DNA of 64,000 nt from Halorussus caseinilyticus. GTDB lineage: Archaea > Halobacteriota > Halobacteria > Halobacteriales > Haladaptataceae. The translations under genes were made by a program, and so were the position numbers. The DNA is taken from assembly GCF_029338395.1 (NCBI RefSeq), contig NZ_CP119809.1:1240001-1304000 (forward strand), given 5' to 3'. Of the stretch, positions 4,580 to 61,820 are shown piece by piece (within the stretch, counting starts at the first letter, position 1; the number at the start of each line of letters is the position of its first letter). A model generated the notes under the pieces. The model was given only the letters and a program-made list of their open reading frames with translations, had not been told where the DNA came from and did no database searches.

Positions 4580-5242
4580 TCACTCGAACGCGGCGACCAC
4601 GCCCGCCGCGTCCGCAATCTCGGCGAACTCGCCGGACAACTGGGCCAGCGCGACCCGGTGGTTCCGCTCGGCGGGAATCGTCCCGCCGTCGGGTGCCTCG
4701 CGGTCGAACGTCGCGGTGGCGTCCGAGACGACGACCGGCCGAAAGCCGAGGTTCTCGGCCATCCGCGTCGTGGTCGAGACGCAGTGGTCGGTGGTCAGGC
4801 CCGCGACGACGAGGGTGTCGAGACCGCGCTCGCGGAGCCACGACTCCAGTTCCGTGCCGACGAACGCGCTGTTGACGCGCTTGACGACTTCGAGTTCGGT
4901 CGCGCTCTCCCCCTCGTTACCGTCACCCGCGCGGCGCGCGTCCCCGCGCGCCGCGCTCTCGTCCGCGTCGCCCACGTCACCCGCGCGCGACGCGGGTGAC
5001 GCGGGCGCGAGACCGGACTTGAATGCGAACCCCTCCCGGTCGTTCCGGAGCGGCGAGTCGTCTTCCTGCGAGGCGTGGCGGACGTGGACCACCGGCCGGT
5101 CTTCCCGCCGCCACGCGCCGAGGAGGTCGCGCGCGACCTCCTCGGCGTCGGGGTTGTTCCGGTCGCCCCATCGGGGGTCGTCGAACCCGCGCTGGAAGTC
5201 CACGAGGACGAGAACCGCGTCCTCGGGCAGGTCGAGGCTCAC
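4580..5242 (-). CDS. Isochorismatase-like cysteine hydrolase
   Basis: 220 residues from a GTG at 5242, which overlaps the TGA of the upstream YqcI/YcgG gene (GTGA), so both belong to one operon. The catalytic triad of the superfamily is visible: Asp15 (LVDFQRGF), Lys121 ([10 protein letters not shown]) and Cys154 (LTTDHCVST). Known members hydrolyse nicotinamide, isochorismate or N-carbamoyl compounds; the substrate here is open. Residues 80-113 are a Gly/Ala/Asp/Glu/Arg-rich insertion not expected in the fold. Its DNA holds two perfect hairpins (4929-4956 and 4976-5000) and a 13-base direct repeat (4921-4933 and 4975-4987). Confidence 0.88.
4921..5000. repeat. Palindrome-rich insertion inside the isochorismatase-like gene
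   Basis: Hairpin one: 12-base perfect arms 4929-4940 and 4945-4956 with a 4-base loop. Hairpin two: 10-base perfect arms 4976-4985 and 4991-5000 with a 5-base loop. CGTCACCCGCGCG occurs at 4921 and again at 4975, a spacing of 54 bases (18 codons), so a duplication would keep the frame. The encoded stretch falls between conserved strands of the hydrolase. Confidence 0.85.
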
Positions 5243-8597: not shown

Positions 8598-8682
8598 CGA
8601 ATCCGGCGGGCGGTTCGGTCTCTACTTTTGCCGTCGTCTCAGACCGAGACGCGAACGAGTCTACGCTACTCGTCGGCGAGAC

Positions 8683-8714
8683 GCCTCGCGCAGTCGCGCG
8701 CGACTGCGCGAGGC
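8683..8714. terminator. 32-base perfect palindrome, probable terminator of fba-fbp
   Basis: Bases 8683-8698 are the exact reverse complement of 8699-8714, with no central spacer. It lies 86 bases after the fbp stop and before an A/T-rich stretch (8745-8760). It could form a 14-15 bp RNA hairpin. Archaeal termination mainly uses U tracts, so the palindrome may instead be another member of the hairpin elements described elsewhere in the window. Confidence 0.6.
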
Positions 8715-8888
8715 GCAGGTAGCTACACCGTAGTTAGAGAACGAGAAATATTGCTTAGAGCAACTGAAACCGTTTTCTCGGTGAACTGCCACCGTTCGCT
8801 CGTCGGACCGGCCGAGCGCACGGTACCGCCGAGAGTAACCGCTTCCAGTTACGCAAACCTTTTCAAGTGATGTATTGTCGTTACCTTC

Positions 8889-11354: not shown

Positions 11355-12179
11355 ATGACAGCGAACAGAACGACATTGAAACGGGCAGTCGCGGTCGGCG
11401 TCGCGCTTCTGGTCGTCGCCAGTTTGGGCGCAGGGACGGTCGCGTCGCTGACCCAAGACGAAGGAAACGCGCAGGTTCGGGTCGCACACATGTCGCCGGA
11501 CGCACCGGCGGTGAACGTACAGGTCGATGGCGAGACGGCGGTCGAGGACCTCGAGTACAGTGACGTGACCGAGTACCTCGACCTCTCGGCGGGCGACCAC
11601 GACGTGACCATCGTCACGGCCGAGAACGAGACCGCGGTCTTCGAAGGGCAAGTCTCGGTCGAGGCGAACGAGAAGTACACCGTCATGGCGGCCGGAGAGG
11701 TCTCCGAGAACGCGACCGAAGAGTTCCAAGTCACCGTACTCTCGGACGCCACCGAAGCGCCGACTGGCAACCAGTCGTCGGTGCGTCTCGTCCACGCCTC
11801 GCCCGACGCGGGTCCGGTCGACGTGACCTTCCAGCAGTCGGGTGACGCGGTGGCCGACAACGCGACGTTCGGCAACGCGACCGACTACACGACCGTCGAG
11901 GACGGCGTGTACACCTTCGAAGTGCGACCCGCGGCCGAGGACAATAACGGTACCGTCGTCGCCACGTTCAACGAAAGTCTCCTCGAAGGGAACGCGTACA
12001 CCGGATTCGTCGCCGGGTACGCCAGCCCGGAGGACGCGCCAGCGAACGAGTCGCTGAGCCTCTTCCTCGAAATTGACGTGAACGGCACCGAACAGGCCGC
12101 AGAGACCACCGAAATGGTCGAAGAGACGACCACGGTGGAGATGGACGGCGAGGAAGAAGAGACGACCACCGAAGCGTAG
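11355..12179 (+). CDS. DUF4397-domain secreted protein, paralogue 2
   Basis: 274 residues. A signal sequence (KRAVAVGVALLVVASLGAG, about 9-27) is followed by two DUF4397 repeats with VRVAHMSPDAPAVNVQVDG and VRLVHASPDAGPVDVTF. Compared with paralogue 1 it has an extra C-terminal tail rich in Thr, Glu and Met (TTEMVEETTTVEMDGEEEE), typical of haloarchaeal surface-protein spacer regions, though no PGF anchor follows. Sequons such as NGT and NAT suggest glycosylation. It converges on the thioesterase gene; their stop codons are adjacent. Confidence 0.88.
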   Translation: MTANRTTLKRAVAVGVALLVVASLGAGTVASLTQDEGNAQVRVAHMSPDAPAVNVQVDGETAVEDLEYSDVTEYLDLSAGDHDVTIVTAENETAVFEGQVSVEANEKYTVMAAGEVSENATEEFQVTVLSDATEAPTGNQSSVRLVHASPDAGPVDVTFQQSGDAVADNATFGNATDYTTVEDGVYTFEVRPAAEDNNGTVVATFNESLLEGNAYTGFVAGYASPEDAPANESLSLFLEIDVNGTEQAAETTEMVEETTTVEMDGEEEETTTEA

Positions 12180-12948: not shown

Positions 12949-13886
12949 CTACTGAAGCCGACGACAGGGAGACCGCACCGCCACCGCACGGCACCGCAGA
13001 CCGCCACCGCACCGCGCCTCGGGCCGGAACTCGCGGCCGACCGCGAGTTCCGGCCCGCGCCGGACCGCCTCGATTCGGTCGAGCGGGTACCGCTCGCGGC
13101 CGGGCGGCGCGCGCCAGTCGTGGCTCACGACCGCGGCCGACAGCAGGACCCAGAACGAGACGAGGTGGTAGGCGCGAGCGAGACCCTGCGTCCGCGCCAG
13201 CGCGACGACGCCGAGAGCCGAGGCCGCAATCCACGTCGCGAGGACCGGCGGCGCGACCAGCGCCGCCAGTCCGACCGCGAGCCAGCAACTCGAAACCACC
13301 GAGTGGCGGAGGTGTCGGAGGTGGGCGACGAGCAGGCCCGGCGACGACGCCGACCGGAAGAGCGCGTCCGCGACTCCGTGGAAGAAGCCCCGACGCCAGC
13401 GCCGGAGCGGTTCGCGGTAGGTCGCCGGTTCGCTGGCCTCACCGGTCTCGCCGAGGTGCCCGCCGACGCCCGCGAGTCCGGGTCCGCCGCGAGTCGCCGG
13501 GACGCCGCTTCGAGCCATCCGTCCGCCACCACCACGTCGCTGTCCACGAACAGCACCTGCTCGCCCGCCGCGAACGCGCCGCCGACGTACCGGCCCGCCG
13601 CGGGCGTCGAGAGGTCGTCGGTCGGGATTCGCAGGACCGACGCCGGGTGGTCGGTCGCCCGCTCGACGGTCCGGTCCGACGAGTTAGAGTCCACCACGAC
13701 GAGTTCGCTGTCGAACGCCTCGGTCGCCGACCGGACCACGCGCAGACACCGGTCGATGCGGTCGGCCTCGTTGCGGGCGATGACGACGACCGACAGCGAG
13801 GGAAGCGACGCGTCGTTTCGGACAGGATTTTGTTCATCTCGAAATTGTTTTCGATTGCTTCGGAACGAATTTTCGTTCTCGAACAT
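12949..13886 (-). pseudogene. Family 2 glycosyltransferase with membrane C-terminus, frameshifted
   Basis: The ATG at 13886 starts a GT-A domain: LSVVVIARNEADRI near residue 32, SELVVVDSNSSDRT near 58, and the DxD-like FVDSDVVVADGW. At about 13470-13490 the frame stops making sense and coding continues in another frame as LAGVGGHLGETGEA and EPLRRWRRGFFHG, then two hydrophobic segments (SSCWLAVGLAALVAPPVLATW). A one-base change would reunite them into about 300 residues. The 3' end runs through a perfect hairpin and ACCGCA repeats, so the natural terminus may also be altered. The start overlaps the stop of the beta-helix gene (TGATG). Probable role when intact: surface glycan synthesis. Confidence 0.78.
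13021..13056. repeat. Perfect hairpin with 16-base arms at the 3' end of the glycosyltransferase
   Basis: Arms 13021-13036 and 13041-13056 are exact reverse complements with a 4-base loop. It lies inside the last part of the open frame, next to a run of ACCGCA-type repeats (about 12917-13015). It may be a terminator or one of the window's palindromic insertions. Confidence 0.85.
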
Positions 13887-19450: not shown

Positions 19451-20326
19451 CTACTCGAAGGTGTAGAGTCGCGCGCCGCAGTCGCCGCAGGCCAGCACCT
19501 CGTCGGGCGCGTCGGCGCTGGCCCCGCCCGGACCGCCACAGCAATCGACTTCGGTCGTCTCTTCGACCGCTCCGTCGCACGCCGGACAGCGTTCGAGGAA
19601 GGTCCGGAGCGGTCCGGCGGCCTGCGCTCGGCGGCCCTCGGACAGGTCAGTGTCGTCGGCCAGCGTCCGCACGGCGGCGGCCTCCGAGAGCGCGACGGGC
19701 CGAGAGAGCCAGTTCTCGTTCGCGGGGTCGTGGCTCCCGTCGGAGACGACGAACCAGCGGGTGTCGTCCTGACGGAGCCATCCGCTCGGAGTCACCACAT
19801 CTACTTCCTGCCCCGTGGGTGCGGCCGCGCGGAGCGCGGCCGCGAGAGCCTCGTCGTCCCGGTTTCGGAGGTCTCGCATCTCGTCGCGCCACGCCGCTCG
19901 GAAGTCGTCGTCGAGAGACACCCGTTGCTCGTCGGCGAGTACCACGCCAGCGTCGAGGAGCGCCGCGAGAACTTCTTCGCCCGCCTCACCTTCGTCGTCA
20001 TCGTCGTCGGCGTCACCGAGTGACGCCGACGACTCGGGCGCGCCCGGTGGACTGGTCGGAGCGGTGTCGCCGTGGTCGAAGAACTCGCCCGGTAGCCGAG
20101 AGGCGAGTCGCGGCGCGAACCGCGGCGTGTAGGGGACAAGATACCCTCGAAGCGCGATGACCGCCGCGCCACCGAGACCGGCCGCGGCCGCGAGCGACCG
20201 CGAGCGGCGGCGCGCGACCCCTGCGCACGCGGCGAGCAGTATCGCGGCGTTGACCGCAGTGCAGGGCCAGCACCGGCGCTCGCCCGTGTAGTCGTCGTTC
20301 CGAAGTCGTTCGTAGAGAGACGGCAT
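19451..20326 (-). CDS. Hypothetical membrane-anchored zinc-ribbon protein
   Basis: 291 residues. One or two hydrophobic segments near the N-terminus (VNAAILLAACAGVA and LAAAAGLGGAAVIALRG) are followed by a soluble acidic region. The C-terminus holds CPAC about 50 residues from the end, a CCGG pair in a Gly-rich turn, and CGDCGARLYTFE at the very end, consistent with a zinc ribbon. A 10-base perfect hairpin (19821-19830 and 19834-19843) encodes an Ala-rich loop (LAAALRAAAP). No enzymatic function is recognised. It is divergent from the aldo/keto reductase. Confidence 0.65.
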   Translation of the reverse strand: MPSLYERLRNDDYTGERRCWPCTAVNAAILLAACAGVARRRSRSLAAAAGLGGAAVIALRGYLVPYTPRFAPRLASRLPGEFFDHGDTAPTSPPGAPESSASLGDADDDDDEGEAGEEVLAALLDAGVVLADEQRVSLDDDFRAAWRDEMRDLRNRDDEALAAALRAAAPTGQEVDVVTPSGWLRQDDTRWFVVSDGSHDPANENWLSRPVALSEAAAVRTLADDTDLSEGRRAQAAGPLRTFLERCPACDGAVEETTEVDCCGGPGGASADAPDEVLACGDCGARLYTFE

Positions 20327-27806: not shown

Positions 27807-27856
27807 AGCGCGGCGGCGAGGCGGCCTCAGCCGCCTCGCCGCCTCGCCGCCGCGCT
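27807..27856 (+). terminator. Long GC-rich hairpin after the Gfo/Idh/MocA gene
   Basis: The left arm is 27807-27825. The right arm, 27830-27856, contains the complement of the whole left arm interrupted by a duplicated GCCGCCTC, so an 11-bp and an 8-bp helix can form around a CTCA loop. It begins eight bases after the TAG stop and is followed by A/T-rich DNA, suiting a terminator. Confidence 0.65.
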
Positions 27857-31162: not shown

Positions 31163-31570
31163 TCACTTCCACGGGTTCGACACCAAGTCGTTCGCCACCG
31201 CCGCGCCGACTTCGATGCGGCAGTCCGACCGCGGTTCGGCGATACAGAGCAGGGCGTACCCGTCTTCGAGGTGGCGCGCCTTGAGACCGCGCGGCGGGCG
31301 GACGTGTTCGAGGTCGCCGTCGAGGACGCGCCCGGTGCAGGTCGCGCACGCGCCGGTCCGACACCCGAACGGGAGACCCGCGCCTTCGCGTCGGGCCGCG
31401 GCCAGCACCGTCTCGTCGGCGTCGGCGGTCAGGACCACCGACGCCGACGCTGGCCCCGCTTCCGAACCCGACTCCGCTTCCGACGCTGATTCGGACCCTG
31501 CTCCCGACGCCGACGCCGCGGCGTCGGCGTCGGTGTCGCGCCCGACGAGTTCGACTTCGTACGCGGTCAC
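31163..31570 (-). CDS. Plant-type [2Fe-2S] ferredoxin with Ser/Ala/Glu-rich insertion
   Basis: 135 residues from a GTG at 31570, overlapping the TGA of the SBP56 gene (GTGA). The cluster ligands are Cys70, Cys75, Cys78 (CRTGACATC) and Cys109 (LLCIAEP), the adrenodoxin/plant-type arrangement. Residues 12-44 are a low-complexity Ala/Ser/Glu/Asp run; its DNA includes a 26-base perfect palindrome (31506-31531), and this run is inserted between the first strand and the rest of the domain. As the second gene of a two-gene unit, it could accept electrons from the SBP56-type oxidase. It is shorter than the typical haloarchaeal photosynthetic-type ferredoxin. Confidence 0.88.
   Translation of the reverse strand: MTAYEVELVGRDTDADAAASASGAGSESASEAESGSEAGPASASVVLTADADETVLAAARREGAGLPFGCRTGACATCTGRVLDGDLEHVRPPRGLKARHLEDGYALLCIAEPRSDCRIEVGAAVANDLVSNPWK
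31506..31531. repeat. 26-base perfect palindrome inside the ferredoxin gene
   Basis: Bases 31506-31518 are the exact reverse complement of 31519-31531 with no spacer. It encodes part of the Asp/Ala/Ser linker (around residues 13-22), outside the iron-sulfur fold. Confidence 0.85.
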
Positions 31571-33070: not shown

Positions 33071-33412
33071 TCAGACGACGCCGCGGACCAGCGACCCGAG
33101 CGCCGCCAACCCGACCGGAATCCCGACGCTCAGGTAGAGCAGTCGGCCCATCCCGGCGTACGCGACGAGTCCGCCGTTCGCGGCCACGAGTCCCGCGAAG
33201 ACGGCCCACGCGACCAAGCCGAACCCGACTCCGGCCAGCAGGCCGCGCTTGGCGTCCGCAGAGACCAGACCGACCAGCGCGCCGCCGACGAGGAACCCGT
33301 ACCAGTGGACCCACGCCGCGGCGAGTCCGACGACAGTTCCGGCGAGCAGTCCGGCCCACCGCGCTCTGGCGTCGGACCGAACTTCCCGCAACCACGCCCG
33401 AGCGACGCTCAT
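33071..33412 (-). CDS. Small polytopic membrane protein following the penicillin acylase-like gene
   Basis: 113 residues. The ATG at 33412 overlaps the TGA of the penicillin-acylase-family gene (ATGA). After a short Arg-rich N-terminus (MSVARAWLREVRSD), about four hydrophobic segments appear (WAGLLAGTVVGLAAAWVHWY, GFLVGGALVGLVS, LLAGVGFGLVAWAVFAGLVA, LLYLSVGIPVGLAALG). No family is recognised. The coupling suggests a partner of the acylase-like enzyme, for example in anchoring or export, but that is inference. Confidence 0.72.
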   Translation of the reverse strand: MSVARAWLREVRSDARARWAGLLAGTVVGLAAAWVHWYGFLVGGALVGLVSADAKRGLLAGVGFGLVAWAVFAGLVAANGGLVAYAGMGRLLYLSVGIPVGLAALGSLVRGVV

Positions 33413-35823
33413 TCGTCGCCCTCCCGCGTATCGCTTCCCTCCGACTTCTGGAAGGAGATTGCGCGCTCGCCCGCCATCTCTCGGCGCATCGACTTGTACT
33501 TCCCGTCGGCCCACAGTCGCAACTGGTCGTCGTAGTGGTCCGAGAAGTACTCGCCGGAGTTGCCCCCCGGCAGGATACACACCGACTGCTCGCGGTCGGC
33601 CATCGGACACACCATCCGCCAACTGCTCCCGACCGCCGACTCCTTCCGGTAGTTGTTCAGCGTGTAGGCAGACCCGTCGGTCGGGTACTCGGGATAGTTC
33701 AGAAACGACTGGTCGAACGGGTGGGTGATGGACGCGGTGGTGTTGTAGTCGCCGTAGGTCGCGCCGTCCTCGATTCCTTCGATGGCCGCTTCGAGCGCCC
33801 GGCCCATCACCGCCTGCCTGCCCTCGTCTCCGAACCATCGACTGTCGTCGGGCAGGGCCGCCAGCACCCAGTCGTTCGGGTAGTACTCCTCGCCGAGGTC
33901 CTTCGCGTCGAACTCGTCGGCGAACGTCTCCCGGCGGAACTGCTCGAACCACTTCACGAAGACGAGCGCCGCGCGCGAGTCGCGGGTCATCCGGGCGTCC
34001 CAATCGCGGAGTGTCTCGGCAACGTCACCGAGTCCTCGACTCTCGGCGGCCGCGACGAGTTCCTCGCGCAACTGCTCGGCCCGCGCGGACTTCGCGTCTC
34101 GCTGGAGTCTGCGCATGAACTGCGGGTCCATCGGCTTCTCGGAGTCGGCCCGCCCGTCGAGCAGTTCGTAGAGTCGCCGACCCCGGTAGGGTGCGGCGTA
34201 CCGCTCGCCGACGTAGTGTTCGGGGTCGTCCTCGACTCGCTGGTTCGCGGTGCCGAGGTAGTCGGGGTTGAGGACGTGGGGTTTCTCCTCGAACGGGACG
34301 AACCCCTCCCACGACGAGACACCGAAGGGTTCGAAGCCCTCCCACTCGGCCTCGCCCGCCGACCCGTCGAAGACGCGGGTGCCCCAGACCTCTTCGCCGT
34401 TTACCGTGCGAATCGGAATCTTGCCCGTCACGTAGTAGAGGGTGCTTCCCTCCCGGTCGGCGTAGACGACGTTCTGAGTGGGCAGGTCCATCTTCCGGGT
34501 CGCCGCGAGGAAGTCCTCGACCCCCTCGGTCTCGCTGTACTCGTGGACCGCCAGCGAGGTCCGGGTCGCGGTGTGGCCGGTCCACGAGACGCCGACTCGC
34601 TGGCCCTCGCGTTCGAGGACCGGACCGTGGACCGTCTTCCGGACCGTGACGGTTCGGTCCTCGCCGTCGGCGACCGGAATCGTCCGGTCCTCGGCCTCGA
34701 ACTCGCGCCACTCGCCGCGGTAGCGATACCGGTCGCCCGCGTCGTCGGTCTCGTAGCTGTAGAAGTCGATTACGTCCGCGCCGGAGTTGGTGAACCCCCA
34801 CGCTCCGGCGTCGTTCTCGCCGATGACGACGAACGGGACGCCGGGGAAAGTGACCCCCCGGACGCTCACGTCGTCGGTCCGAAGGTTCATCTCGTACCAC
34901 ACCGGCGGGGCCATCAGCGTGAGGTGGGGGTCGTTGGCGACGATGGGCTTGCCGCTCTCGGTCTGACTCCCCGAGACCACCCAACTGTTCGACCCGACGC
35001 CGGGCGGCGACTCGAAGTCTCCAAGCCAGTCGAGCAGGTCTGCGTCGGCGAACTCCCCCGAGGGTTCGACGGTGTTCCCCGAGACGGGAGCGGTCCGGCG
35101 ACTGCGAGTCGCAGTCGCCGGACCGCTCCCGTCTCGGATGATTGGCGCGTCGTGGTCCATCCGGAAGGGGTAGAGTTCTTCGACCGTCTCCTCACCGAGT
35201 TTTCGGGCCAGCAGTTCGCGCCGGAGCGTCCAGAAACTCCCGGTCAGCCCCCACGAAATCTGTTGTTCCATCAGCATCGTGTCGGCGGGGGTCCACGGGT
35301 CGGGTTCGTAGTCGAGCAGGCCGAATTCGAGGGGAAGGGCCTCCTGCTCGCGGCAGGCGTTGACGCCCTCGCAGTAGGCTTCGAGCGCCGCGCCGGTCGG
35401 GGTCCCGTCGAGGAGTTCGAGGTTGGCCTCCGCACCGCCCGCGAAGTCCATCCGCACGTGGAACTCGTCGGAGTCGAGCGCGCGCTCACCGACCACCTCC
35501 GAGAGTCGGCCCGCCATCACCCGTCGCTGGAGGTCCATCTGGAAGAGTCGGTCGGCGGCCTGTGCGTACCCCACCGCGAAGTAGAGCGCCTGCTCGCCGT
35601 CGGCCTCAATCTGCGCAGTCCCGTAATCGTCGTAGCGCACCGTCGCCCGACCGTAGGGACTCTCGACCTGCCGGTTCGTCCGGTCGGTCGCGTCCCGCCA
35701 CGCCGACCCCGAGAACGGCGCGAACCGGTCGAGATAACCCCGAACCGGCGAGAGCGAACCCCCGACGGCCCCGCCGCCGACGATGGCGGCGACGAGCGCA
35801 CGTCGCGTGGTATCGATGTCCAT
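33409..35823 (-). CDS. Penicillin acylase-family Ntn-hydrolase
   Basis: 804 residues. The N-terminus has a possible weak signal (RRALVAAIVGGGAVGGSL, 7-24), so export, perhaps Tat, is likely. The precursor arrangement is alpha subunit, spacer, beta subunit. The expected autocatalytic nucleophile is Ser278 at GSNSW (277-281), and the beta subunit continues with SGKPIVANDPHLTLMAPP and FTNSGADVIDFY, which are family landmarks. Substrates of relatives are N-acyl homoserine lactones, penicillins or cyclic lipopeptides. Just before the nucleophile, residues about 231-250 come from a 59-base perfect hairpin (35079-35137), in the spacer that is normally removed. Confidence 0.92.
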   Translation of the reverse strand: MDIDTTRRALVAAIVGGGAVGGSLSPVRGYLDRFAPFSGSAWRDATDRTNRQVESPYGRATVRYDDYGTAQIEADGEQALYFAVGYAQAADRLFQMDLQRRVMAGRLSEVVGERALDSDEFHVRMDFAGGAEANLELLDGTPTGAALEAYCEGVNACREQEALPLEFGLLDYEPDPWTPADTMLMEQQISWGLTGSFWTLRRELLARKLGEETVEELYPFRMDHDAPIIRDGSGPATATRSRRTAPVSGNTVEPSGEFADADLLDWLGDFESPPGVGSNSWVVSGSQTESGKPIVANDPHLTLMAPPVWYEMNLRTDDVSVRGVTFPGVPFVVIGENDAGAWGFTNSGADVIDFYSYETDDAGDRYRYRGEWREFEAEDRTIPVADGEDRTVTVRKTVHGPVLEREGQRVGVSWTGHTATRTSLAVHEYSETEGVEDFLAATRKMDLPTQNVVYADREGSTLYYVTGKIPIRTVNGEEVWGTRVFDGSAGEAEWEGFEPFGVSSWEGFVPFEEKPHVLNPDYLGTANQRVEDDPEHYVGERYAAPYRGRRLYELLDGRADSEKPMDPQFMRRLQRDAKSARAEQLREELVAAAESRGLGDVAETLRDWDARMTRDSRAALVFVKWFEQFRRETFADEFDAKDLGEEYYPNDWVLAALPDDSRWFGDEGRQAVMGRALEAAIEGIEDGATYGDYNTTASITHPFDQSFLNYPEYPTDGSAYTLNNYRKESAVGSSWRMVCPMADREQSVCILPGGNSGEYFSDHYDDQLRLWADGKYKSMRREMAGERAISFQKSEGSDTREGDE
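35079..35137. repeat. Perfect hairpin with 27-base arms inside the acylase spacer
   Basis: The arms 35079-35105 and 35111-35137 are exact complements around a 5-base loop. The reading frame of the acylase runs through it, coding a Ser/Arg/Thr/Ala-rich stretch just upstream of Ser278. It is the longest perfect hairpin seen in the window. Confidence 0.9.
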
Positions 35824-36162: not shown

Positions 36163-37849
36163 CGGCGGCATCGCGGGGGACGCCGGGATATGGGTCCTCG
36201 GCACCTTCGGCGTCTACCTACTGGCCCTGTTGGGCATCGGACTCTACTCCTCGCAGTTCATGGATTCGGTCGGCGACTACGTTATCGGTGGCCGGGAAAT
36301 CGGTCCCGTCGTGACCGGGTTCTCCGAGCGCGCCTCCGAGATGAGCGGATGGCTGACTCTTGGGGTGCCCGCGGACGCCTACGGCACCGGCATCATGGCG
36401 TTCCTCAACGGTCTCGGGATGATTCCCGCCGACCTGTTCGCGTGGGCGGGCATCGCCAAGCGTCTGCGCAAGTACACCGAACTCGTCCAGTCGGTGACGC
36501 TCCCCACCTTCTTCGCCACCCGACTCGGCGACGACACCGGCGCGGTCAAAGGCATCTCGGCAATCGTCCTCATGCTGTTCGAGGGCGGGTACGTGGGTGC
36601 CCAAATCGTCGCGGCCGGGACCCTGCTTCAGATTCTGACCGGCATCCAACCGTGGGTCGGCATCGTGGTCGGCGGCGTCATCGTCATCGGCTACACCTTC
36701 CTCGGCGGCTACTTCGCCGTGGCGTGGTCGGACTACTTCCAAGGGGCCATCATCCTCGCGGCGTTCATCCTCCTGCCCGTCATCGCGTTCACCGACATGG
36801 GCCTGCCGTTCGCCGATGTCGCGGCCACCGCGGGGTCGTCGATGACCAGCATCACGGCCGGAACCGCGGGATGGGCCGCCGTCTTCGGCGTCATCAGTTA
36901 CGCGGCCATCGGTCTCGGCGTGCCCGGTAACCCCCACATCATGGTCCGGTTCATGGGCATCGACCGGGTGAAGAACGTCCGCCTCGCGGCGCTGGTGGCC
37001 CAGTTGTTCATGTTCGTCGCGTACGTGGGCGCGGCGCTGGTCGGCCTGTACGCCATCGCCATGTTCGGTGAGGGTGCGCTCGCCAACCCCGACAACGCGA
37101 TGCCGCGCCTGACGCTGGACCTCCTGCCCGGCGCTGTCGCGGGTATCGTCCTCGCGGCGGCGCTCGCGGCGATGATGTCCAGTGCCGACTCCCAGTTGCT
37201 CGTCGCGACGAGCGCAGTCGTTGAGGACGTGTACCACGGCTTCGTCAACGAGGACGCCTCCGAGCAGGAACTGGTGAAGTACTCGCGGTACGTCACCTTC
37301 GGTCTAGGTGCCGCGAGCGTCGCGTTCGCCTACCTCGCCAAGGACACGCCCATCTACACGCTGGTCCTCGACTACGCGTGGGGCGGTCTGGGCGCGGCCA
37401 TCGGCCCGACGGTCATCGCCACGCTCTGGTGGAAGCGCGTGACCGCGAAGGGGTCGGCCGCCAGCATGGTGGTCGGCACGTCAACGATGATTCTGTGGAC
37501 CCAACTCCCGACCGTGCTGGAGGCCGTCGGCATGATGCCGCCGGAGTCCGCGGCGTTCTGGTACGGTCTCGTCACCGTCTACGGCCTGTTCCCGGCGTTC
37601 GTGCTGTCGGCGACCACGCTGGTCGTCGTCTCGCTGTTCACTACGCCGCCGGGCGACGTGGACGACCACTTCGACGTGTTCGACAAGCCCCTGTCGGCGG
37701 TCATCTCCTCGTCGGAGGGCGACGGCGTTCCCGACTACGCCACCGACGGCGGGAGCGCCACCGACACCTCGCCGAAGGTCGTGACCGAGGGCGACAACAT
37801 CCGCGGCCACGTCGCCGCCTCCGGATACTGGGACGACGATGAGCGCTGA
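36152..37849 (+). CDS. Sodium/solute symporter, SSS family (PutP-like)
   Basis: 565 residues from the ATG at 36152. About 13 membrane helices of the LeuT-like fold. PutP-like landmarks: VGDYVIGGREIGPVVTGFSERASEMSGW (helix 1-2), LPTFFATRLGDD, GGYFAVAWSDYFQG, and GNPHIMVRFMGIDR, close to the proline/sodium carriers. The substrate could be proline or a carboxylate. The C-terminus is an acidic cytosolic tail of about 65 residues. A small accessory peptide precedes it with overlap, and a third gene overlaps its end (37839), making a three-gene unit. Confidence 0.92.
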   Translation: MQSSGGIAGDAGIWVLGTFGVYLLALLGIGLYSSQFMDSVGDYVIGGREIGPVVTGFSERASEMSGWLTLGVPADAYGTGIMAFLNGLGMIPADLFAWAGIAKRLRKYTELVQSVTLPTFFATRLGDDTGAVKGISAIVLMLFEGGYVGAQIVAAGTLLQILTGIQPWVGIVVGGVIVIGYTFLGGYFAVAWSDYFQGAIILAAFILLPVIAFTDMGLPFADVAATAGSSMTSITAGTAGWAAVFGVISYAAIGLGVPGNPHIMVRFMGIDRVKNVRLAALVAQLFMFVAYVGAALVGLYAIAMFGEGALANPDNAMPRLTLDLLPGAVAGIVLAAALAAMMSSADSQLLVATSAVVEDVYHGFVNEDASEQELVKYSRYVTFGLGAASVAFAYLAKDTPIYTLVLDYAWGGLGAAIGPTVIATLWWKRVTAKGSAASMVVGTSTMILWTQLPTVLEAVGMMPPESAAFWYGLVTVYGLFPAFVLSATTLVVVSLFTTPPGDVDDHFDVFDKPLSAVISSSEGDGVPDYATDGGSATDTSPKVVTEGDNIRGHVAASGYWDDDER

Positions 37850-38411
37850 CGCCGCCGACTCCAGCGACGGCGCTGACTCGGCGTCCGACCCCGAGCGAGC
37901 GTCCGGGCGCGAGCGCCCGGACGCGAGCGACCACCCGATGGTCGGTCAGCGACACGACGAGGCCGAACTCCCCGTCTTCCCGCCCGCAATCGTCCGCGAG
38001 GAAGTCGAATCGACCGGCCGAGTCGGTGCGGTGGCCTACCCTTACCGGGTGTACGAGACCGAAGTCGAAGTTGACCGACCCCTGCTGTCGCCCCGGCGCG
38101 ACCGGCGGGTCGTCAGCGTGGACTGCTCGCGGCGGCTCGCGCTTCGGGCCGACACCGTGCCGGAGTTCGAGACCCGGACGGTCGAGGACGCGCTGGTGTT
38201 GCCCAGCGAACTCTCGCCCGAACAGGCCGACGAGAAGGCCCGAGACGCCGTGTTCAAGTGGACGCTCCGCACGTCGATTCTCGGCGACGTGCCGGACGTG
38301 GAGTTCGCTCGGGTCGCCGACGCCTACAAGTTGTTCTGGTTGGCGGAGCGACCCGACGGCGACGTGATTCTCGACAGCGTGAACGGGAACGAGCGGTTGC
38401 TCGACGACTGA
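37839..38411 (+). CDS. Hypothetical soluble protein coupled to the symporter
   Basis: 190 residues. Starts 11 bases before the symporter stop. The first 35 residues are Ser/Asp/Ala-rich and disordered, and their DNA includes a 12-base-arm perfect hairpin (37899-37910 and 37913-37924). The folded part (VFPPAIVREEVESTGRVGAVAYPYRVYETEVEV and onward) is acidic without membrane segments. No domain is recognised. Its fixed position behind the symporter suggests a regulator or partner. The stop codon lies within a 23-base-arm hairpin. Confidence 0.7.
   Translation: MSADAADSSDGADSASDPERASGRERPDASDHPMVGQRHDEAELPVFPPAIVREEVESTGRVGAVAYPYRVYETEVEVDRPLLSPRRDRRVVSVDCSRRLALRADTVPEFETRTVEDALVLPSELSPEQADEKARDAVFKWTLRTSILGDVPDVEFARVADAYKLFWLAERPDGDVILDSVNGNERLLDD
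37899..37924. repeat. Perfect hairpin inside the disordered N-terminus of the symporter-linked protein
   Basis: Arms 37899-37910 and 37913-37924, 12 bases each, with a 2-base centre. In frame, it encodes residues about 21-29 (SGRERPDAS region). Confidence 0.85.
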
Positions 38412-38446
38412 CCGGTCCCAATCGGGACCGGTCAGTCGTCGAGCAA
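38397..38446 (+). terminator. Perfect hairpin with 23-base arms over the stop codon of the symporter operon
   Basis: Arms 38397-38419 and 38424-38446 flank a 4-base loop and include the last four codons and TGA. It is followed by T-rich DNA (TTTTCC, then TTTTATTTATTTATC at 38467-38481), which fits a terminator. The downstream gene is convergent, so it would serve the plus-strand operon. Confidence 0.8.
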
Positions 38447-47794: not shown

Positions 47795-48955
47795 ATGAAC
47801 TTGAAACGTAACTGGCTCCGGCGGAGGAGCGAGAAGTTACTACCGACGCTCGTCGCCGGTCTCGGTAGCGTCTTGTTCCTCGTCTACGTCGGGGAACGTC
47901 TCATTCTCTACGAGGGTCAAAACTTTCACTCGAACGGCTTTCTCGCGGACCTGCTCATCGCCGTGACCTTCATCCTGCCGCTCGTAGCTGGCGGCTATCA
48001 CCTCGCCCGGAGCGACCTTCCACCGAGTCGCTACCCGCGAATCGTGAAGTGGGTCTTCGGCGGGCTAGCCTTCTTCTTCTTCATCAACAGCATCATGATG
48101 GCGATTTCGTCGTTCGACACCTTCGCGCTCCGGGTCTCGTGGGGACGATGGGCGGCGAGCGTCGGCGGAACGACCGGCCTGCTGGTCGGCTACATCGAGG
48201 CGCGGGCCATCCAGCGCGAACTCGAAGCCCAACGCGCCGCGATACGGGCTGAAGAGGCCGAAAACCAGCGCCAGTGGCTCGACTACCTCAACGGCGTCCT
48301 CCGCCACGAGGTGCTGAACACCGCGAACGTCATCGTGGGTTACGCGTCGCTACTGCTCGAAGACGAGAGCCTCGACGACGCCACCAGAGCGCAACTCGAA
48401 ACGATTCACAGGCAGGGCAAAGACATGACGAAGGTCATCAGGGACGTGCAGGTGTTGTTAGACGCCACGTCTGACGTTGCCCAGTTGGACCCGACGAACC
48501 TCTCGGAGATACTCGACGCCGAACTGGACCAACTTCGGGACACGTACGAGTCCGTGACGGTCGAGGCGTCGATACCGGACGACGTGTTCGTGTTGGCCGA
48601 CGAACTCCTCCCGCGAACGTTCTCGAACCTCCTGCGGAACGCGGTCGAACACAACGACGCCGACTCGCCGGAGGTTCGTCTGAGCGTCGAACGAGTCGGC
48701 GACTCGGCCGTCGTCCGAGTCGCCGACAACGGGCCGGGGATTCCGGCGAACCAACACACGACGCTCTTCGAACGCGGCGACAACACCGGGGCCAAACACG
48801 GTCTCGGTCTCTATCTCGTCCGGACGCTGGTCGAACGCTACGGCGGGTCCGTCGAGTTGGCCGAGACTGGACCCGACGGGAGCGTCTTCACCGTCGAACT
48901 CCCGATAGCCGAGTCAGCGACCGCGGACGGTCACGCCGACGATTCTGCGAAGTAG
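47795..48955 (+). CDS. Membrane sensor histidine kinase
   Basis: 386 residues. Four hydrophobic segments lie within the first 135 residues (for example LVAGLGSVLFLVYVGERLI, LADLLIAVTFILPLVAGG, WVFGGLAFFFFINSIMMAI), like a 4TM sensor without an extended extracellular domain. A coiled linker (around 138-162) leads to the dimerisation helix with the phospho-acceptor His171 (LRHEVLN), then an HATPase domain with NLLRNAVEHN (N box), VADNGPGIP (G1) and GLGLYLVRTLVE (G2). No response regulator is adjacent, so the partner is unknown. A GATATAAATT lies so close to the ATG that transcription would begin inside the gene; the promoter is unclear. The end overlaps the convergent asparaginase by 25 bases. 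Confidence 0.9.
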   Translation: MNLKRNWLRRRSEKLLPTLVAGLGSVLFLVYVGERLILYEGQNFHSNGFLADLLIAVTFILPLVAGGYHLARSDLPPSRYPRIVKWVFGGLAFFFFINSIMMAISSFDTFALRVSWGRWAASVGGTTGLLVGYIEARAIQRELEAQRAAIRAEEAENQRQWLDYLNGVLRHEVLNTANVIVGYASLLLEDESLDDATRAQLETIHRQGKDMTKVIRDVQVLLDATSDVAQLDPTNLSEILDAELDQLRDTYESVTVEASIPDDVFVLADELLPRTFSNLLRNAVEHNDADSPEVRLSVERVGDSAVVRVADNGPGIPANQHTTLFERGDNTGAKHGLGLYLVRTLVERYGGSVELAETGPDGSVFTVELPIAESATADGHADDSAK

Positions 48956-52455: not shown

Positions 52456-53107
52456 TCGTGGTCGCGGGTTGTCGCTCGGATGGATTAAGTGATGGTTCTC
52501 GGCTTCGGGGGGTCGTCGGAGTCAGCGTCTCGACCGTTGCTGTGGCTGTTGTCGTCTCTGCGGTCTTTGTCGTTGTCGTTGTGATTTTTGTCGTCGGTAC
52601 GGTCGTCGTCTCTGCTGTTTTCGTCGGCATCGTCTCTGCTGTTCGTGCGGTCGTCGGCGTCGTCGGAGTCGTTCCTGTCGTCGCTGGTCTCGTCGCGGAG
52701 GGGATTCAGAAATACTCGCTCCGCAACAGCACTGCAACCGCGACCACAGTCACTGCGAGGAAGAACGCCCAGAAAGCCCCCGCCCGCTCGCGGTCGCTCC
52801 GCGGGATATTCTCGCTCGCTTCGCTCGCTCGAATAGTGGCCCGCGGAGGCGACTAAACTGCACGCGAGCGGGCGGCCCCTTTATCCACCCCTGTCGGTTG
52901 GTCGGCCGAGCGCGTTCCGATGGGTTGGTCGGCCGAGCGCGCCTGCTTTCGGACAACTACACGTTTTCTTAGCATGGGTTTATATTTCTTAAACAAACAA
53001 TTTTATACTTCTACTCGGTCGAGAAGAAGACGAACACCCCTCGAAGCGCGGAGCCGAAGCTACTCGACGTGCGACTCGAACCGGACCGCTCGCCGTAAAA
53101 CAGTTAT
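52456..53107. other. Low-complexity, repeat-bearing spacer without an intact gene
   Basis: From 52530 to 52700 the plus strand is a run of GTC/GTT triplets. On the minus strand one frame reads as an Asp/Asn/Arg-rich tail that ends at a TAA near 52492, and another frame as Thr-rich; neither has a good start. From 52706 to 52941 lies copy 2 of the palindromic element. An A/T-rich island (52960-53012) holds TTTTCTTAGC and TTTCTTAAAC, followed by the convergent end of tfb. No promoter can be assigned with certainty. Confidence 0.6.
52706..52941. repeat. Dispersed palindromic element, copy 2 (with inserted inner stem)
   Basis: Outer arms 52780-52792 and 52863-52875 are identical to those of copy 1, with the flank CCCCTTTATCCACCC (52876-52890) and GGTTGGTCGGCCGAGCGCG. 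The flank occurs twice (about 52896 and 52923). Instead of a 5-base loop there are 70 bases carrying an inner near-perfect stem (52793-52805 with 52840-52853). The minus strand reads ...DRERAGAFWAFFLAVTVV... to a TGA at 52708, related to the peptide of copy 1, but the frame has no start codon here. Confidence 0.75.
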
Positions 53108-60242: not shown

Positions 60243-61820
60243 CTACCTTCCGTTTCCGCAATCCACGCCCCGAAGCCGTTCCCGAACTGCCTCGCGCTCT
60301 ACCGTCCCCGAGGCAGTCCGCGGGAGTGCGTCGGCGAACCCGACCGTCCGGGGTCGCTTGTACCCCGCGAGTCGGTCCCGGCAGTGGGCCGTCACGTCGT
60401 CCGCGGAGAGGTCCGCACCGCCCGCCGGAACCACCAGCGCCGCGACTCGCTCGCCCCACTCGTCGTCGTCCAGTCCCACGACGGCGGCGTCGCGAACGTC
60501 GGGATGGTCCCGAAGCACCTCGACCACCTCGCCGGGGTGGACGTTCTCGCCGCCGGTGACGATGCGGTCCTCGCGGCGGTTCAGCACCCACACCCGACCC
60601 GCCTCGTCGCGGTAGCCCACGTCGCCGGTGTGGAAGCCGTACTCGCCGAAAGCGTCGGACGTGGCCGCCGAATCTCCGTAGTAACCCCGCGTGACCGTCG
60701 GCCCGGAGACGACGAGTTCGCCCGCCTCGCCCGCCGGAAGCGGGTCGCCGCCGTCGCCGACCACGGTCAGGTCGGTCCAGAGCAGTGGCCGCCCGACGGT
60801 CCCGCGGTGGGCGAACGCCTCGCGGGACCGGGCCGTGGCGATTTGGGAGGCGGTTTCGGTCATGCCGTAGGTCGGGTGGACCGGCACGCCGCGGTCCTCG
60901 CACCGCGCGAGCAGTTCCTCCGAGGCGGGCGCGCCGCCCAACAGGACGAACCGGAGCGAGTCGGCCAGCGAACCTCGGGCGTCCAGCATCCGGCGGAGCA
61001 TCGTCGGCACCAGCGAGACGCCCGTCGCCTCGTACTCGGCGATGGCGTCCGCCGCGTCCGCGGCGTCGAAGCCCTCTCGGAGGACCACCGTGGACCCGTA
61101 GAGCGCCGACCGGAGGACCACGGACAACCCGCCCATGTGGTACATCGACAGGCAGAGCAACCACCTGTCGTCGGGCGTCACGCCGAGTCGGAACGCAGAC
61201 GCCACGGCGCTCGACAGGAAGTTGCCCGTCGCCAACTCGACGGCCTTCGGGTCGCCCGTGGTCCCGGAGGTGAACAGCATCGCTTGGGCGTCCGCCCACG
61301 ACCACGACGCCGGGTCGAAGTCGGCGGGAGTTCGCTCCGCGAGCGCGGCGACCCCCTCGGTCTCCGGCGAATCGACCGACGCGACGGGGACCGCGGTCCC
61401 CGTCGCGGACGCGGTGGCGTCCGCAGTCGCCACCGCGTCCGCCTCGGTCGCTCGCTCGCAGACGACCAGATGCAGGTCCGCGACTTCTGCCTGCCGCGCC
61501 AACTCCGGCCGGGCGAGTCTGGCGTTCAGCGGGACCAGAACCGCGCCGAGGCGCATCGCGGCGTGGACCAGTCGGACGAACGCGACCCGCGTCTCCATCA
61601 GCACGCCGAGGTGGTCGCCCGCCCCGACGCCGAGGGCGGCGAGTCGGCCCGCGGTCCCCTCGACCGCCGCGTCCAACTCGGCGTAGGTCCACCGTCGTCC
61701 GTCGGTCTGCTCACCGTCGTCCGCCTCGACGAGCGCCGTCGCCTCTGGAGAGACCCGAGCGCGGTGGGCCAACCAGTCGCGGGTCGGCGCGGCAGTTCCC
61801 GCGCCGCTCCCGTCAGTCAT
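60243..61820 (-). CDS. menE: o-Succinylbenzoate-CoA ligase (MenE)
   Basis: ATP-dependent activation of o-succinylbenzoate for menaquinone synthesis. 525 residues. The P-loop LFTSGTTGDPK, the adenine site YGMTETASQ and the A8 motif HTGDVGYRDEAGRVWVLNRRED are intact, as is the C-terminal LPRTASGTVERE (Lys replaced by Thr/Glu context, see family variants). Residues about 128-160 are an Ala/Thr-rich loop whose DNA holds a 26-base palindrome (61381-61406) and a 15-base-arm hairpin (61405-61442). It overlaps menC by eight bases, so menA-menC-menE form an operon. Confidence 0.88.
   Translation of the reverse strand: MTDGSGAGTAAPTRDWLAHRARVSPEATALVEADDGEQTDGRRWTYAELDAAVEGTAGRLAALGVGAGDHLGVLMETRVAFVRLVHAAMRLGAVLVPLNARLARPELARQAEVADLHLVVCERATEADAVATADATASATGTAVPVASVDSPETEGVAALAERTPADFDPASWSWADAQAMLFTSGTTGDPKAVELATGNFLSSAVASAFRLGVTPDDRWLLCLSMYHMGGLSVVLRSALYGSTVVLREGFDAADAADAIAEYEATGVSLVPTMLRRMLDARGSLADSLRFVLLGGAPASEELLARCEDRGVPVHPTYGMTETASQIATARSREAFAHRGTVGRPLLWTDLTVVGDGGDPLPAGEAGELVVSGPTVTRGYYGDSAATSDAFGEYGFHTGDVGYRDEAGRVWVLNRREDRIVTGGENVHPGEVVEVLRDHPDVRDAAVVGLDDDEWGERVAALVVPAGGADLSADDVTAHCRDRLAGYKRPRTVGFADALPRTASGTVEREAVRERLRGVDCGNGR
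61381..61442. repeat. Palindrome and hairpin inside menE
   Basis: Bases 61381-61393 and 61394-61406 form a 26-base perfect palindrome. Immediately after, arms 61405-61419 and 61428-61442 form a perfect 15-base stem with an 8-base loop. Both encode an Ala/Thr/Ser-rich loop of MenE around residues 126-147, between conserved parts of the adenylating domain. Confidence 0.88.

Follow-up and report, generated by a model that had tools for sequence, protein, structure and literature searches.

A perfect 59-nt hairpin in an acylase gene of Halorussus caseinilyticus and the probable role of fold-back template switching in hairpin-rich Halorussus genomes

Studies in E. coli, yeast or primates usually treat hairpins arising from template switching as rare events. 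Rickettsia palindromic elements form families of similar copies that are spread through the genome. During template-switch mutation, the nascent strand is extended on itself or on the opposite strand as template, which either perfects an imperfect repeat or makes a new stem (PMC7202029, PMC8794818, PMC8604942). Such switching at quasi-palindromes is known in E. coli (PMC7202029) and was argued to make perfect stems in one step (PMC8794818). The closest known phenomenon to the hairpins described here is found in the perfect coding palindromes of nematomorph mitochondria (PMC6649704). These are long perfect inverted repeats in functional genes, which are gained and lost between species, show a phase bias and lack an obvious function; as their origin, repeat conversion or template switching was proposed (PMC6649704).

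These features are matched by hairpins of the genus Halorussus, for which template switching is likewise proposed here. Long perfect inverted repeats that vary between species were found there in intact reading frames. In contrast to the nematomorph palindromes, which are mitochondrial, lie in conserved protein parts and are not accompanied by an excess of imperfect repeats (PMC6649704), the Halorussus hairpins are located on a cellular chromosome, have shorter arms and occur mostly in hypervariable linkers and intergenic DNA. Repeats with one mismatch are as common as perfect ones, so that the lack of imperfect repeats is not a trait of this genome. With quasi-palindrome correction as described in E. 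coli, yeast and others (Ripley model; PMC7202029, PMC8604942, PMC8794818), the Halorussus hairpins share clustered multi-base changes in one arm, the occurrence in coding DNA and, putatively, the perfection of an imperfect repeat by copying from the other arm. However, quasi-palindrome correction has been seen at hotspots or on a scale of tens of events in a lineage, whereas about 144 perfect hairpins per Mb are standing in this genome, with sharp variation among congeners. Rickettsia palindromic elements resemble the acylase hairpin in being palindromic, in frame and tolerated inside protein genes, but the former constitute families of similar copies, whereas the arms in Halorussus are unrelated and the acylase hairpin is unique. 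The host gene shares the serine motif GSNSW and the variable segment before it with penicillin G acylase and D-succinylase (Ntn hydrolases, PF01804); the hairpin is not a feature of this family. In the literature searched, no report of such hairpin abundance in Halorussus was found.

The analysed window is a 64,000-nt stretch of the 4.39-Mb genome of H. caseinilyticus. The following features were assigned at the acylase locus:
35079..35107, no strand assigned: left arm of the perfect palindrome, 29 nt (repeat search and RNA fold)
35109..35137, no strand assigned: right arm, 29 nt, exact reverse complement of the left arm (repeat search)
35098..35112, no strand assigned: 15-nt core (gene sense GCGACTCGCAGTCGC), also found in the H. 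ruber hairpin at this site, which is otherwise different (codon alignment and hairpin list)
33409..35823, minus strand: penicillin-amidase (Ntn-hydrolase) family acylase gene, 804 aa, with the hairpin in frame (Pfam and phmmer)
35053..35094, minus strand: proposed 21-nt tandem duplication, residues 244-250 and 251-257 (inferred from alignment by eye)

The palindrome at 35079-35137 is 59 nt long, with perfect 29-nt arms around one central nucleotide. An earlier note had described a perfect hairpin at exactly this position, but with 27-base arms and a 5-base loop; position and perfection were confirmed, while the pairing proved to be longer. Folded as RNA, the hairpin has a loop of 3 nt and a minimum free energy of -68.9 kcal/mol (z = -10.2), and none of 200 shuffled sequences was as stable. 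The expected number of such perfect arms in the 64-kb window is about 4e-11, in line with the claim of the earlier note that chance is an unlikely cause. Its assignment of an in-frame position inside an 804-residue acylase gene also held: the product matches the PF01804 profile over its full length (E 7e-198). The hairpin encodes residues 229-249 and ends about 29 codons before Ser278, the predicted nucleophile, which phmmer places at residue 1 of the solved beta chains and which follows a glycine, as in PF01804. By analogy with the family, the residues encoded by the hairpin would be excised as part of the spacer. The predicted structure of the acylase is of low confidence (mean pLDDT 47.6, shallow alignment).

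When orthologues were compared, the segment between the conserved DHDxPI and GSNSW motifs turned out to be hypervariable. Alignment positions of the hairpin are gapped in 25% of cases compared to 0.1% elsewhere in the gene (15 other Halorussus sequences), and the earlier suggestion that this segment tolerates insertion is thus well founded. A long hairpin at this site was found in only one of 16 other Halorussus orthologues, that of H. ruber; it is perfect, with 16-nt arms and a 3-nt loop. It has the core GCGACTCGCAGTCGC in common with the hairpin of the window, while the outer arms differ between both species and are perfect in each. The longest perfect stem in the remaining orthologues is at most 9 nt, and no long hairpin was present in the examined orthologues from other genera. 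The near absence from the genus makes a required RNA fold unlikely. Neither the genome, in which the earlier note had proposed to look for further copies, nor 17 other Halorussus genomes contain a second copy of the arm. The same note had taken a lack of the 59 bases in close relatives as support for an insertion. The long hairpin is indeed missing except in H. ruber, but relatives hold partly homologous residues at this position and the linker is too variable to define an exact empty site. A segment coding for the same residues by non-palindromic codons, named there as evidence to the contrary, is not applicable since conservation is already lacking at the residue level.

Because of its many gaps, the spacer could not be scored arm by arm and was read by eye. 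In gene sense, the left arm (CGA GAC GGG AGC) aligns to positions at which relatives have residues of the R-D/N-G-S/D type, and homology of core and flanks to relatives runs through the hairpin. The outer right arm is situated in seven extra codons that are missing in relatives. These codons may be a tandem copy of the next seven, in which the middle of copy 1 would have been overwritten by the hairpin arm; the copies match at 12 of 21 positions overall and at 0 of 7 in the putatively overwritten middle. The nearest relatives of the acylase are approximately 86% identical, and no strain pair displays the event before and after. As the acylase tree is poorly resolved within the genus, we claim no history of gain or loss, and the number of changes in the state of hairpin density cannot be told from it.

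Hairpins were counted genome-wide if they were perfect, with arms of at least 12 nt and a loop of 0-8 nt. The sample consisted of the window and 20 further samples of 20 kb each from across the main contig (464 kb, about 11% of the genome). In the window, the census yielded, among others, these palindromes:
38397..38446, plus strand: second-longest palindrome of the window, 23-nt arms, 4-nt loop; end of gene 37839-38411 with its stop codon, followed by the reverse complement (hairpin census and relatives)
13020..13057, no strand assigned: in-gene, 17-nt arms, loop 4 (hairpin census, as for all following lines)
5116..5147, no strand assigned: in-gene, 16-nt arms, loop 0
61405..61442, no strand assigned: in-gene, 15-nt arms, loop 8
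31504..31533, no strand assigned: in-gene, 15-nt arms, loop 0
20003..20033, no strand assigned: in-gene, 14-nt arms, loop 3
48695..48727, no strand assigned: in-gene, 13-nt arms, loop 7
8682..8715, no strand assigned: intergenic, 17-nt arms, loop 0
27812..27843, no strand assigned: intergenic between convergent genes, 14-nt arms, loop 4

Perfect hairpins are enriched throughout the genome, with 67 found in 464 kb (144 per Mb) compared to none when this DNA was simulated with an order-3 Markov model. Only one mirror repeat of the same size was detected, indicating that the excess is specific to inverted symmetry. About half of the hairpins lie inside predicted genes, as called by a simple codon-usage caller instead of a standard annotation, and the reading frames remain open. 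Outside predicted genes, hairpins are about fourfold denser per base (binomial p 3e-8), which would be expected if a neutral process were filtered by coding constraint. One of three codon pairing classes is under-represented among the in-gene hairpins of palindrome-rich species (3 of 59). Shared coding and codon-usage symmetry, with common haloarchaeal codons being mutually reverse-complementary, could in principle produce such repeats, and some in-gene hairpins of 12-13 nt are conserved coding coincidences, e.g. VGRALAPDG in many species. Synonymous shuffling that preserved proteins and codon usage yielded 3 in-gene hairpins compared to 31 in the real sequence, however, and arms of 14 nt or more are found in non-conserved residues. 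Palindrome-poor congeners are also similar to the rich ones in composition. Codon symmetry is therefore insufficient for long arms, and we regard it as a very unlikely general cause.

The arms are unrelated to each other. Almost no common sequence was obtained from a comparison of 112 Halorussus hairpins, and among those with arms of at least 13 nt hardly any pair has the same arm sequence. This argues against an invading palindromic element, one of two readings of the earlier note, which could be similar to those of Rickettsia or of the REP/MITE type and would have been inserted in frame into the acylase spacer. As an element would predict, lineage-specific in-frame insertions in linkers account for several of the long in-gene hairpins and repeated REP-like units for some intergenic ones, but the acylase arm is unique in genome and genus, its core and flanks are homologous to relatives throughout, and arms appear to be locally sourced. 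A Y1 (IS200/REP-type) transposase was found neither in this genome nor in the rich G010, and its presence is not correlated with density. We therefore consider an inserted element quite unlikely.

Some repeated sequences were observed nonetheless. The REP-like hairpin unit (AAAGCCCCCGCCCGCTCGCG ... CGCGAGCGGGCGGCCCCTTT), which is intergenic at 820-864 and 52773-52882 of the window and at L150:17678-17707, is among the few hairpins that recur. A dispersed repeat of about 270 bp at L137:17450-17720 has more than 10 copies in this genome (72-90% identity) and further copies in other Halorussus genomes. The 8-mer GGCGATTC/GAATCGCC is about 50 times over-represented in Halorussus arms (6 seen, 0.12 expected), which is not obviously predicted by purely local copying.

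In-gene hairpins with arms of at least 14 nt, as analysed around the acylase gene in 16 Halorussus species, lie mostly in non-conserved, indel-rich and hence tolerant stretches. Gaps amount to 34% at these hairpins compared to 1.7% elsewhere in the respective genes, and identity to 32% compared to 79%. In single cases, one arm is conserved and the other is new. At 38397-38446, the left arm is the conserved gene end including the stop codon, which is kept in relatives, while the right arm is missing in them; G012 features a different 17-nt hairpin just beyond the end of the same gene. The hairpin at L137:15995-16035 carries four lineage-specific substitutions, all in one arm and each restoring pairing, and none in the other arm; elsewhere in this gene the null mean is 0.61 substitutions per window and no control window reaches four. 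At both sites, one arm is thus ancestral and the other was replaced by its reverse complement. One-sided change was tested in ungapped hairpins and is individually significant in L137:15995 only, with several others leaning in the same direction without significance. Orthologue consensuses at ungapped hairpin sites are 38-92% complementary, but homology to the hairpin confounds these values. For the many long hairpins that are entirely contained in lineage-specific insertions, the source arm cannot be told. Two bases decide between a perfect and an imperfect hairpin in G014 and G003, which are 97.5% identical in the protein concerned. Sites are also used repeatedly: one linker has three different hairpins in G005, G010 and G017, and the acylase linker has different ones in the present genome and H. 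ruber.

Based on these results, the hairpins probably originate from fold-back template switching (quasi-palindrome correction), which would be unusually active or tolerated in some Halorussus lineages and filtered by coding constraint. The 59-nt acylase palindrome would accordingly be the footprint of local fold-back synthesis at a short quasi-palindrome and not an inserted element. Pairing of the nascent strand, either with itself or with the opposite strand, would take place at a small core stem, after which one flank would be copied as the reverse complement of the other. After return of the strand to its template, a perfect hairpin would be left, with a length that keeps the reading frame, and the product would survive in the tolerant acylase linker. 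Loops of 0-2 nt, present in 54 of 112 Halorussus hairpins, favour inter-strand switching over a simple intra-strand fold-back. Perfect 16-nt repeats and those with one or two mismatches number 54, 49 and 69 per Mb in this genome; the near-equal first two classes suggest creation followed by decay, with some upkeep possible. We infer the molecular act itself, as well as a lineage-specific change in replication or repair that would set its rate, from these patterns. Polyploidy with gene conversion was described for Haloferax volcanii (PMC11276520), and we speculate that in haloarchaea both may help to fix hairpin changes.

Hairpin density differs strongly between species. In 16 other Halorussus genomes, values of 317, 217, 188, 100, 75, 62, 50, 50, 38, 33 and 17 per Mb were obtained, along with five zeros (60-80 kb each, about 2% of most of these genomes). 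This heterogeneity is significant (chi-square p 6e-15), and at the rate of this genome the probability of finding no hairpin in the five poor species is 1e-20. Other haloarchaeal genera range from 0 to 15 hairpins per Mb, with 45 in Haladaptatus. For 16-nt arms, the classes with 0-1 mismatches are inflated in rich species only, whereas rich and poor species are similar in those with 4-5 mismatches, indicating that composition is not the cause.

These differences also bear on selection for the RNA or DNA hairpin itself, e.g. to slow translation before the beta subunit, as the earlier note had proposed, or to protect the mRNA, with compensatory changes that keep the pairing. The very stable RNA fold is consistent with such selection, the two different perfect hairpins at the same spot in two species resemble covariation, and the similar frequency of hairpins with 0 and 1 mismatch allows for some upkeep. 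Yet just one other Halorussus orthologue has a long hairpin, similar hairpins are present in unrelated genes and at higher density between genes, and the overall rate ranges from 0 to 317 per Mb among congeners. Selection of this kind is therefore unlikely, and an effect on translation was not corroborated. Fold-back chimeras are a known class of sequencing artefact. An origin of the hairpins from sequencing or assembly is most improbable, because reading frames stay open across in-gene hairpins, a hairpin with an identical core is present in this gene of H. ruber, which was sequenced separately, and the excess occurs in several independent assemblies but is missing in others at equal G+C.

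In this and several other Halorussus species, fold-back template switching would then act chromosome-wide and far exceed that of sister species in its rate or in the survival of its products. Whether some species carry a heritable palindrome-making mutator state, missing in close congeners, that writes hairpins chromosome-wide and repeatedly remodels linkers in frame is a tentative proposal, towards which we remain slightly sceptical. If true, such a state would be the equivalent of the coding palindromes in nematomorph mitochondria at the scale of a cellular chromosome. The gene behind it could then be searched for, given that the state would be on in some species of the genus and off in others. 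As its species range from zero observed perfect palindromes to hundreds per Mb, Halorussus provides a natural experiment on the control of fold-back synthesis and on hairpin survival. The process also offers a route by which protein linkers could acquire many new codons in one go. Furthermore, perfect covarying stems inside genes need not imply a functional RNA.

Among Mre11-Rad50, DinB, MutS, Y1 transposase and ExoVII, no gene was found to explain the species difference. Mre11, part of a hairpin nuclease, is encoded without stops beside Rad50 in 18 of 18 Halorussus genomes. One DinB is present in 17 of the 18, the exception being an incomplete genome, which does not point to an extra Y-family polymerase, and MutS is present in all, which does not point to a loss of mismatch repair. 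The large subunit of ExoVII scored above the cut-off in four of five zero-density species, but also in the rich G012, and is missing from the poor G016 and most other relatives. With a Mann-Whitney p of 0.078 and five families tried, ExoVII is a lead at most.

The gene of the ExoVII large subunit is located on the small contigs L269, L270 and L271 (G013, G003 and G012), which are probably plasmids. Their identity of 98-99.97% over kilobases between species indicates recent transfer. The usual motif III of the Mre11 phosphoesterase is GNHD. All Halorussus Mre11 genes seen feature GNHE instead, including the one at L226:248-1492. A MutS gene was observed at both ends of the main contig C1 (G000), near 11490 and 3457892, in frames of 597 and 924 aa with the same score, possibly reflecting circular overlap or a real duplication.
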